NCBI RefSeq assembly: GCF_011777495.1
Contig: NZ_JAATJS010000003.1
Location: 310,001-374,000, forward strand
From: Microvirga terricola
GTDB taxonomy: Bacteria; Pseudomonadota; Alphaproteobacteria; Rhizobiales; Beijerinckiaceae
DNA length: 64,000 bases
Direction of reading: 5' to 3'
This document shows positions 23,464 through 25,966 of this stretch, one piece after another (the stretch's first letter is position 1; every line of letters begins with the position of its first letter). Below the pieces are notes generated by a model. It was not told the DNA's origin, did not search any database, and saw only the letters and a list, made by a program, of their open reading frames with translations. The position numbers were made by a program, and so were the translations under genes.

Positions 23464-23483
23464 AATGTGTGCGCGTGCACATT
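23464..23483. promoter_or_regulatory. 20-base near-palindrome upstream of the small-protein array
   Basis: Bases 23464-23483 pair end to end: AATGTG with CACATT outside, and C-G at the centre, with only two G-T type mismatches in 10 positions. It lies about 145 bases before the first small-protein gene and upstream of the likely promoter, where an activator or repressor could bind. The symmetry is visible; the role is inference. Confidence 0.35.
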
Positions 23484-23523
23484 GGCGGAAGCAGAGATTT
23501 AAATTCTTTGCGAAAATAGTTGA

Positions 23524-23529
23524 TATAAC
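23524..23529 (+). promoter_or_regulatory. Possible -10 element for the small-protein array
   Basis: TATAAC occurs in an AT-rich stretch 80 bases before the first start codon. No convincing -35 hexamer stands 16-18 bases upstream, so an activator or an alternative sigma factor may be needed. Transcription from here would give a leader of about 70 bases containing the fold described at 23546-23602. Confidence 0.3.
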
Positions 23530-23545
23530 GTTTCATAAAAAATAA

Positions 23546-23602
23546 CCTCCTTGTGCGCTTCGGCCTTCCAACGGTCGGCGCGTTGGTAAATCCCGAAGGA
23601 GG
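23546..23602 (+). promoter_or_regulatory. Anti-Shine-Dalgarno leader fold upstream of the small-protein array
   Basis: CCTCCTT (23546-23552) is perfectly complementary to AAGGAGG (23596-23602), which is the ribosome site of the first small-protein gene (ATG 23609). Between them CCAACG (23568-23573) pairs with CGTTGG (23581-23586) over a 7-base loop. Together they make a two-tier hairpin that would hide the ribosome site. Such folds act as RNA thermometers or respond to a ligand or protein. Complementarity is seen directly; regulation is inference. Copies 2 and 3 have exposed GAGGAGG sites and lack this element. Confidence 0.5.
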
Positions 23603-23608
23603 GAAAAC

Positions 23609-23839
23609 ATGGTAACTCGTATAAGTGCTGTCACATTGGCGCTTGCCATCTCCGCGTTCAGCGCGACGCAGGCTAGTGCGTTCTTTGGCTATGATGATGA
23701 GCGCGATCCGCCGAAGGGTTTGAACGGTGTGAGCGCGACCGGCCTGACGGACCAGGGGCTTGCCGACCTCAAGGTTGGCAAGGCGGCGCATTCGAAGTCC
23801 GTCGTGCTGCCTGACGGCTCGCGCGTCGAGATCAAGTAA
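23609..23839 (+). CDS. Small secreted protein of unknown function, array copy 1
   Basis: A 76-residue precursor. Residues 1-24 form a Sec signal peptide ending 'TQASA', leaving a mature protein of 52 residues that starts FFGYDDERDPPKGL and ends VVLPDGSRVEIK. The mature part has no Cys, is hydrophilic, and has a conserved 'GVSATGLTDQGLADLKVGK' core. It resembles nothing I can name. From base 23636 onward it is almost identical to copies 2 and 3; before that, its first nine codons differ (MVTRISAVT), so the duplication or gene conversion boundary lies inside the signal peptide. The ribosome site AAGGAGG can be masked by the leader fold. Confidence 0.8.
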   Translation: MVTRISAVTLALAISAFSATQASAFFGYDDERDPPKGLNGVSATGLTDQGLADLKVGKAAHSKSVVLPDGSRVEIK

Positions 23840-23853
23840 GCGAGGAGGAACTC

Positions 23854-24084
23854 ATGACGATCCGTAAAAGCGTTCTGGTGTTGGCGCTTGCCATCTCCGC
23901 GTTCAGCGCGACGCAGGCTAGTGCGTTCTTTCACTATGATGATGAGCGCGATCCGCCGAGGGGTTTGAACGGTGTGAGCGCGACCGGCCTGACGGACCAG
24001 GGGCTTGCCGACCTCAAGGTTGGCAAGGCGGCGCATTCGAAGTCCGTCGTGCTGCCTGACGGCTCGCGTGTCGAGATCAAGTAA
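23854..24084 (+). CDS. Small secreted protein of unknown function, array copy 2
   Basis: A 76-residue precursor with signal peptide MTIRKSVLVLALAIS...ASA (residues 1-24) and a 52-residue mature part. It differs from copy 3 at only three residues, all just after the cleavage site: His27 (Gly in copies 1 and 3), Glu31 (Asp in copy 3) and Arg36 (Lys in copies 1 and 3). The rest, through the VEIK end, is the same. A GAGGAGG ribosome site stands 7 bases before the ATG, in the 14-base spacer after copy 1, so it is translated from the same message. No known domain is recognised. Confidence 0.8.
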   Translation: MTIRKSVLVLALAISAFSATQASAFFHYDDERDPPRGLNGVSATGLTDQGLADLKVGKAAHSKSVVLPDGSRVEIK

Positions 24085-24098
24085 GCGAGGAGGAACTC

Positions 24099-24329
24099 AT
24101 GACGATCCGTAAAAGCGTTCTGGTGTTGGCGCTTGCCATCTCCGCGTTCAGCGCGACGCAGGCTAGTGCGTTCTTTGGCTATGATGATGACCGCGATCCG
24201 CCGAAGGGTTTGAACGGTGTGAGCGCGACCGGCCTGACGGACCAGGGGCTTGCCGACCTCAAGGTTGGCAAGGCGGCGCATTCGAAGTCCGTCGTGCTGC
24301 CTGACGGCTCGCGTGTCGAGATCAAGTAA
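24099..24329 (+). CDS. Small secreted protein of unknown function, array copy 3
   Basis: A 76-residue precursor with the same signal peptide as copy 2 and a mature N-terminus FFGYDDDRDPPKGL. Asp31 is unique to this copy. The gene is followed after 22 bases by a perfect intrinsic terminator, so it is the last member of the unit. The absence of Cys, of a double-Gly leader and of any membrane segment in the mature part argues against lantibiotic-, microcin- or holin-type products as commonly known. A periplasmic or extracellular role is likely from the signal peptide alone; no function is assigned. Confidence 0.8.
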   Translation: MTIRKSVLVLALAISAFSATQASAFFGYDDDRDPPKGLNGVSATGLTDQGLADLKVGKAAHSKSVVLPDGSRVEIK

Positions 24330-24351
24330 ACGTTCTCCGCATAATGAAAGA

Positions 24352-24375
24352 CCCTCTCGCCACAAGGCGAGAGGG
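24352..24375 (+). terminator. Intrinsic terminator closing the small-protein array
   Basis: CCCTCTCGCC (24352-24361) pairs perfectly with GGCGAGAGGG (24366-24375) around ACAA, followed by TTGTT. The stem is ten pairs with strong GC content. It separates the array from the ADYC-like gene, whose ATG is 11 bases further on. Confidence 0.85.
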
Positions 24376-24385
24376 TTGTTCGAGT

Positions 24386-25273: not shown

Positions 25274-25966
25274 TCATTTCCTGCGCAGGATCAGCCGGTT
25301 GCCGCGAACCTCGTAAGATCCGAGGCGCTCTAAGAAGGTCATGCCGAGAAGATTGGTGTGCAAGCTTCCGGATGGGGTGATCAGGGCCTCCACATTGCGC
25401 TCGGTGATTGGCCCCACAGAAAGGATCGGGATGATGACCGGCGCCGCAAGCGCGGTGCCGTTCGCAGTGGAGACTGGCACGGAATAATCCAGGTCCTCCG
25501 GCTTGAAGCCAAGGGCAGCGGCATTTTCCGCGCGGATCACGACGGTGCTGGCGCCCGTGTCGAAGATGAAACGGCCGTCGCGTCCGTTGACCTTGGCAGT
25601 GAGCACGAAACTCCCGTCCAGCTTGCGCGCGGCAACAACCTCGCCCTTGTCGGTGACGACGGTGCGCCCGAGCGAGACATCGCCAATGGCGCGGTCGATA
25701 ACGGCTTCAAACTCATGCCGGGCGGAATAGGCGACGAGCACAGCCAGAAGAATCCCCGCACTGACGGCAGTGGCCTGCACGCCATAGGTCCAGTGACGGC
25801 TGAAATTCTCGATGATACCGGCGGCCAGAATCAGCGTCAGCGCGCAGAAGCTGACGGCGAGCGCGGTTTCTAACGGCGAAAAATCGGCAATCGGCTCTTC
25901 GACGAGGACGGCAATCAGGAATGCTCCTGCGAGAAGAAGCAATCCCGCTCTGCGCGCGCCACGCAT
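25274..25966 (-). CDS. Retropepsin-like aspartic protease, membrane-anchored (TIGR02281 type)
   Basis: A 230-residue protein with three or four N-terminal membrane helices (about residues 5-85) and a C-terminal single-lobe aspartic protease domain. The active site is 'FIFDTGASTVVI', the DTGAS form of the DTG motif, followed by the flap 'STANGTALAAPVII' and the 'NLLGMTFLERLGSYEVRGNRLIL' ending typical of the clan AA family found in alphaproteobacteria. As in retropepsins it should act as a dimer; substrates are unknown. Its start overlaps the stop of the DUF1289 gene by one base, so they form one unit. Confidence 0.85.
   Translation of the reverse strand: MRGARRAGLLLLAGAFLIAVLVEEPIADFSPLETALAVSFCALTLILAAGIIENFSRHWTYGVQATAVSAGILLAVLVAYSARHEFEAVIDRAIGDVSLGRTVVTDKGEVVAARKLDGSFVLTAKVNGRDGRFIFDTGASTVVIRAENAAALGFKPEDLDYSVPVSTANGTALAAPVIIPILSVGPITERNVEALITPSGSLHTNLLGMTFLERLGSYEVRGNRLILRRK

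Follow-up and report, generated by a model that had tools for sequence, protein, structure and literature searches.

Three tandem genes for a small secreted protein beside an ADYC-domain gene in Microvirga terricola, probably the amplified half of a two-gene module

The window analysed here is a stretch of 64,000 nt from Microvirga terricola, a member of a genus placed in the Methylobacteriaceae (Hyphomicrobiales) in the NCBI taxonomy. Three consecutive open reading frames of 76 amino acids each (copy 1, 23609..23839; copy 2, 23854..24084; copy 3, 24099..24329) are located on its + strand, followed by the gene of a secreted ADYC-domain protein (PF20032; 24386..25183, + strand, 265 amino acids). 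A TauE-type exporter gene is found upstream of the array, and a membrane-anchored aspartic protease (TIGR02281, Pfam/NCBIfam match) is encoded on the - strand (25274-25966), convergent to the ADYC gene. The small genes were delimited by the list of open reading frames and the repeat comparison, complemented by the family profile for copy 1 and by comparison among the copies for copies 2 and 3. The regular spacing given in the initial annotation was confirmed, with start-to-start distances of 245 and 245 nt and a repeat unit of 245 nt, in which copies 2 and 3 are 92% and 91% identical to copy 1. Copies 2 and 3 differ from each other at 4 bases (3 codons altered), and copy 1 differs from copy 2 at 17 bases, 13 of which are inside the first 27. 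The two 14-base spacers, GCGAGGAGGAACTC ahead of copy 2 and its counterpart ahead of copy 3, are identical, each with a ribosome site of its own. All three genes are intact, in line with the earlier view that one small secreted protein is made from several copies. The array occurs at a single place in its own genome, within a contig of 793,830 bases. Because the copies differ and tandem copies are also found in two other genomes of the genus (G004, three; G022, two), the array appears to be more than one copy assembled three times, and the assembly artefact considered at the outset is unlikely, as judged from the assembly.

The predicted precursors contain a Sec signal peptide (boundary ATQASA/FF, judged by eye) and a mature part of 52 residues free of cysteine, as had been described. 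They were also said to belong to no recognised family, and this still applies to the window copies: copy 1 had no match in Pfam and one chance match in NCBIfam (E=0.14), and copy 2 had none among PDB sequences or PHROGs. A search of Rfam returned three matches (E 0.38-0.99), all far under the gathering scores. The AlphaFold model of the small protein, built from few sequences, reached a pLDDT of 60.7, with moderate confidence at the tail hairpin only.

The palindrome TGTGTGCGCGTGCACA (23466..23481, +), with the form GTG-N8-CAC, is situated about 140 nt upstream of the first ATG; we take its geometry to resemble that of CRP-family sites. The motif is found 110-175 nt upstream of 31 of the 59 small genes compared and is absent from this interval in 28, with an expectation of 0.02 per 66-nt interval from a background of 133 occurrences in 429,816 nt, the related species not being independent. 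Its place ahead of the small genes of the genus is fairly constant. On account of this enrichment, the palindrome is likely an operator. The stricter form TGTGYGN6CACA has 13 strand-matches at 10 places in the own genome, compared to 2 for the reversed control, and the neighbours at those 10 places, inspected by eye, have no common theme; one place is near a LuxR-type gene and one near a TetR-type gene. Further downstream, the A/T-rich stretch TTGATATAAC (23520..23529, +) is a weak candidate for a -10 region, based on its likeness by eye to TATAAC or CTTTACTATAAC stretches in several relatives. The possible promoter of the initial annotation was not recovered by a sigma-70 scan, which found none upstream of the array and none at 23520..23529.

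The ribosome site of copy 1, GAAGGAGGG (23595..23603, +, by sequence reading), had been described as masked. A complement of 7 pairs (CCTCCTT at 23547-23553 with AAGGAGG) can indeed be read in the leader, but the same length was reached by 11 of 200 leader shuffles, and the fold of the leader is no better than that of the shuffles (z -0.38). Among 13 relatives, a complement of 6 bases was found in 2 and none of at least 5 bases in 9; in 2 of the 13, a complement of 5-6 bases is not built of ribosome-site letters alone. Masking as a conserved regulatory device was rejected, since most relatives are without the complement.

Between copy 3 and the ADYC gene, a repeat and stem scan and the comparison of gaps revealed a hairpin of 12 pairs, GACCCTCTCGCC-ACAA-GGCGAGAGGGTT (24350..24377, +). 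It had been regarded as a perfect terminator, a reading not upheld here: the stem is present, but a T-run is absent on the + strand, and the scan rates the hairpin terminator-like on the - strand only. In relatives, a T-run follows the stem in some cases (L087, L060) and is absent in others. A stem equalled by at most 1 of 100 shuffles was found in 36 of the 44 gaps between small gene and ADYC gene, and 8 gaps do not beat their shuffles. Consensus folding with RNAalifold, for which groups were hand-picked among related gaps and compared to 30 column shuffles, gave -32.1 versus a mean of -6.4 kcal/mol (sd 2.7) for 9 gaps and -38.2 versus -3.9 (sd 2.2) for 10 gaps, both with compensatory pairs, and -14.4 versus -0.8 for 12 gaps of PPPNG or similar type, among them that of the window. 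All 41 gaps together yielded a weaker consensus (-8.3 versus 0), in which 24-33 of the 41 sequences pair per position, probably because the alignment fails between groups. By this comparison of gap sequences, the hairpin between the small gene and the ADYC gene is conserved in Microvirga. Since the motif GAGAGGG lies inside its 3' arm, about 10 nt ahead of the ADYC ATG, the ADYC ribosome site may be masked in the window; at locus L063, the likely ADYC ribosome site is outside the stem.

The protein downstream of the hairpin is a clear member of the ADYC family (Pfam E 1.5e-39; 136.4 bits versus a cut-off of 27, covering profile positions 1-175 of 176). Its start, ATG 24386, was chosen by eye, the mechanical open reading frame beginning at 24344. 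It is 70% identical to the ADYC protein of M. flavescens, where one small gene is located between a TauE-type gene (identified by eye) and the ADYC gene, the same arrangement as in the window. A structure model of the ADYC protein (AlphaFold, few sequences) had a pLDDT of 31.5 and no usable fold, and among PDB sequences it gave two chance matches only (E 0.45-0.47). A phage or viral origin was dismissed: ADYC was absent in the phages searched, none was confirmed in viral contigs, and copy 2 gave no match in PHROGs.

The initial annotation had called for a profile search with the mature part. A profile of the small family detected members in 38 of 48 genomes of the genus, compared to 16 by single-sequence search (own genome included in the 16). 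ADYC is encoded in 41 of the 48, own genome included. Both are present in 38 genomes, ADYC alone in 3, the small family alone in none and neither in 7 (Fisher p 1.6e-6, with genomes that are not independent); the three ADYC-only genomes have a variant NRLxAN repeat (L055), NGSNL repeats (L057) or a partial ADYC match. With long members giving several HSPs per gene, 91 of the 92 HSPs of the small family share a contig with ADYC, at a maximum distance of 3,527 nt and never on the opposite strand. The sole exception is found in G008, on a contig that lacks ADYC. Viewed from the ADYC side, a profile match is found within 700 nt upstream at 44 of 50 places; at the other 6, a variant repeat ORF is directly upstream in three (L055, L056, L057), one starts 140 nt from the contig start, and the remaining two match the domain only in part. 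In the window as well, the small genes adjoin ADYC on the same strand. No fusion of the small protein with ADYC was noticed among the loci read. The idea that the tail of the small protein copies the first ADYC hairpin was discarded (hhalign probability 0.6%, at another place), and profile comparison did not join the tail convincingly to any part of ADYC.

The anatomy of the small family was read from 40 fetched stretches and the window. Its members consist of a signal peptide, repeats with a period of five or their remnant, a variable linker and a C-terminal tail, VxLxDGxxVxLK; in one clade a PPPNG stretch follows the signal peptide. The N-G repeat runs comprise 0 to 24 five-residue units (NGLST, NGLSV, NGLTV, RNLNG, RGLNG) or a variant. 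At least two period-5 N pairs occur in 47 of the 4,393 ORFs of the loci, and every one of these 47 belongs to the family: 41 lie immediately upstream of ADYC and 6 at a greater distance within the same loci. The tail pattern is present in 55 of 60 members, the three window copies among them, compared to 2 of 4,333 other ORFs; 5 of the 60 lack it. The N-run is 1 in all three window copies, which thus have no period-5 N-G repeats; together with six further members they make up the 9 of 60 with a run of 0 or 1, which is why such repeats are regarded as common but not defining. With a run of only one, the window copies are close to the degenerate extreme of a family with repeats, and the family is hard to recognise from them. 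Read from these sequences, the window lineage has nearly lost the repeats and multiplied the whole gene instead. In the tree of small genes, each of the three tandem sets (window, G004, G022) is on one side of a branch with the other two sets on the opposite side (support 85/83, 83/89 and 100/99), a statement in which rows outside the three sets are uncounted and one long-branched row stands near the G004 set. Such a grouping is compatible with duplications that occurred separately or with homogenisation. Some genomes (G004, G009, G019, G037) have two small-ADYC modules in a row. Tandem modules were seen at L058, L060, L068 and L082, where the second small gene carries NGLST repeats, 24 of them in one run in L068; the first is of the PPPNG type in L058, L068 and L082.

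ADYC is rare across the samples of genomes. The family sample (298 genomes) yielded 22 carriers, among them 18 Microvirga, the order sample (297) 5 and the phylum sample (299) 2, the own genome being counted in each of the last two; in family f57 it was found in 4 of 197 genomes, all of one genus. ADYC proteins may also occur in myxobacteria. At 12 of the 14 loci read outside Microvirga (L095-L098, L108-L117), the neighbour of ADYC is a small exported protein whose period-5 repeats are of the N-G or N-A kind. L116 encodes an exported ORF (889-1218, reverse complement coordinates), in which a Gly-rich middle replaces most N-G repeats and the tail, ...ELPDGTVAQVR, is by eye of the same kind as that of the family. 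The short exported ORF beside ADYC at L117 is without repeats and, by eye, without the tail. On Rhizobium and Neorhizobium plasmids (L109 3803-5120; L110 3797-5078; two loci read out of four matches), ADYC comes first and is followed by an NAITA or NALSN repeat protein; at the annotated one of these two Rhizobiaceae loci the small gene is listed as a hypothetical protein. Since the small gene is downstream on these plasmids, neither the gene order nor control of dosage by a hairpin is universal. A match in Lachnospiraceae (L024) was set aside as chance, because it shares only FFHYDDER, a search pattern, and nothing else convincing by eye.

These observations are probably best explained by a secreted module of two genes, of which the array would be the amplified small half, made in excess. 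The small protein and ADYC probably work together because the family is nearly always kept beside ADYC; this partnership is well supported by the genomic linkage, which as adjacency of genes proves no contact between the proteins. Excess production of the small protein is likely. One promoter, controlled via the GTG-N8-CAC site, would transcribe the small genes, and the hairpin would pass only part of transcription or translation into ADYC, be it by attenuation, by a masked ADYC ribosome site or by protection of the upstream mRNA. Partial passage would leave the small protein in molar excess over ADYC, and tripling of the gene in the repeat-poor lineage of the window would have raised the dose further. 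Both proteins would be exported through Sec. In the periplasm or outside, ADYC might bind or handle the small protein by the C-terminal tail of the latter; a contact at the tail and any biochemical role are guesses. More broadly, and tentatively, the module may represent an exported two-protein system of Pseudomonadota not described before, in which a tail-tagged short-repeat protein, with a number of repeats or genes varying by lineage, is recognised at its tail by ADYC and its excess is set by the hairpin.

The initial annotation had taken the array for a complete operon of its own, in which case the small protein would be an orphan periplasmic protein and ADYC an unrelated neighbour. The stem-loop standing between the array and ADYC would suit this reading, which is nevertheless highly improbable: the linkage is near complete across genera, the position of the hairpin is conserved, the co-occurrence of both families largely contradicts it, and ADYC turned out to be a nearly invariant partner, so that the orphan operon was rejected on the grounds of this linkage. 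How much the triplication itself matters is a separate question. The copies may have arisen by neutral duplication not long ago and been homogenised by gene conversion, with only the pair being of importance, which is compatible with the two-gene module except for the step in dose. The 4 base differences between copies 2 and 3 and the single copy of M. flavescens are in favour of it, whereas three intact frames with a ribosome site each and the tandem copies in G004 and G022 are not, and we consider a triplication without function rather doubtful.

Two further explanations concern the role of the small protein. It could be the precursor of an exported peptide, similar to a bacteriocin or a signal, with ADYC as processing, immunity or receptor protein and tandem copies raising the output. 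In favour of this reading, there are several short precursors per locus with a conserved signal region and tail, a variable middle and a dedicated larger partner, extra copies of the small gene are found at several loci, and both a protease (homologue in 21 of 40 fetched ADYC stretches) and a TauE-type exporter (8 of 40) are in the vicinity. However, the protease of the window is on the opposite strand and both genes are missing from many ADYC stretches, for which reason they look like local synteny and may reflect shared chromosomal surroundings. In addition, the mature part is free of cysteine, its extreme C-terminus is retained, and the uniform repeats, up to 24 in number, look structural; a peptide precursor is thus unlikely. 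A version of the two-gene module, possible though short of probable, regards the small protein as a polymer-like repeat solenoid of the surface or matrix, ADYC as its assembly or anchoring factor and the window copies as a repeat-poor relic. Period-5 runs of up to 24 in many relatives, the Gly-rich middle in L116 and the constant tail are consistent with this, but the N-run of the window copies is 1, and yet the gene is tripled and intact.

With the proposed pairing, ADYC, an uncharacterised Pfam family, gains a candidate partner and a regulatory context, and both proteins become testable by simple deletion and pull-down. The partner would escape annotation by being short, of low complexity and fast-changing, with only the signal peptide, a few N-G units and the tail conserved, and the window shows a lineage in which the gene is repeated rather than a unit inside the protein. 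Pfam covers ADYC alone, and neither Pfam nor NCBIfam was found to have a model for the small partner in the window. Four other small proteins of Microvirga were scanned, three of which match the GLTT repeat (PF01744) via their period-5 NGLSx repeats, a match limited to a short repeat of low complexity; window copy 1 and the fourth relative (RNLNG type) are without it. The pentapeptide-repeat consensus is A(D/N)LXX (PF00805). Like these proteins, the small family has a period of five with a hydrophobic position; unlike them, it has N-G as a fixed element, and the proteins are short and exported. Window copy 1 and the four relatives scanned had no Pfam match to PF00805. In the literature searched, which left out most papers of subscription journals, no description of the small-ADYC pairing, no paper naming the ADYC domain or PF20032 and none on the GLTT repeat was found; papers containing the word ADYC are unrelated by title and the start of the abstract. 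In a table of a 2026 preprint on stable consortia (PMC12919014), a pentapeptide-repeat protein of a Microvirga is listed against an Archangium protein with the value 50.43.

The closest parallels to the proposed control are operons in which protein ratios are set between the genes. In the puf operon this is done by an intercistronic hairpin. Intercistronic stem-loops are likewise described to set protein ratios in a cellulosome operon (PMC4423207). Unlike in both operons, the 3' arm of the window hairpin may hold the ribosome site of the next gene; as in both, a stem-loop is located between the gene needed in excess and the gene that follows.
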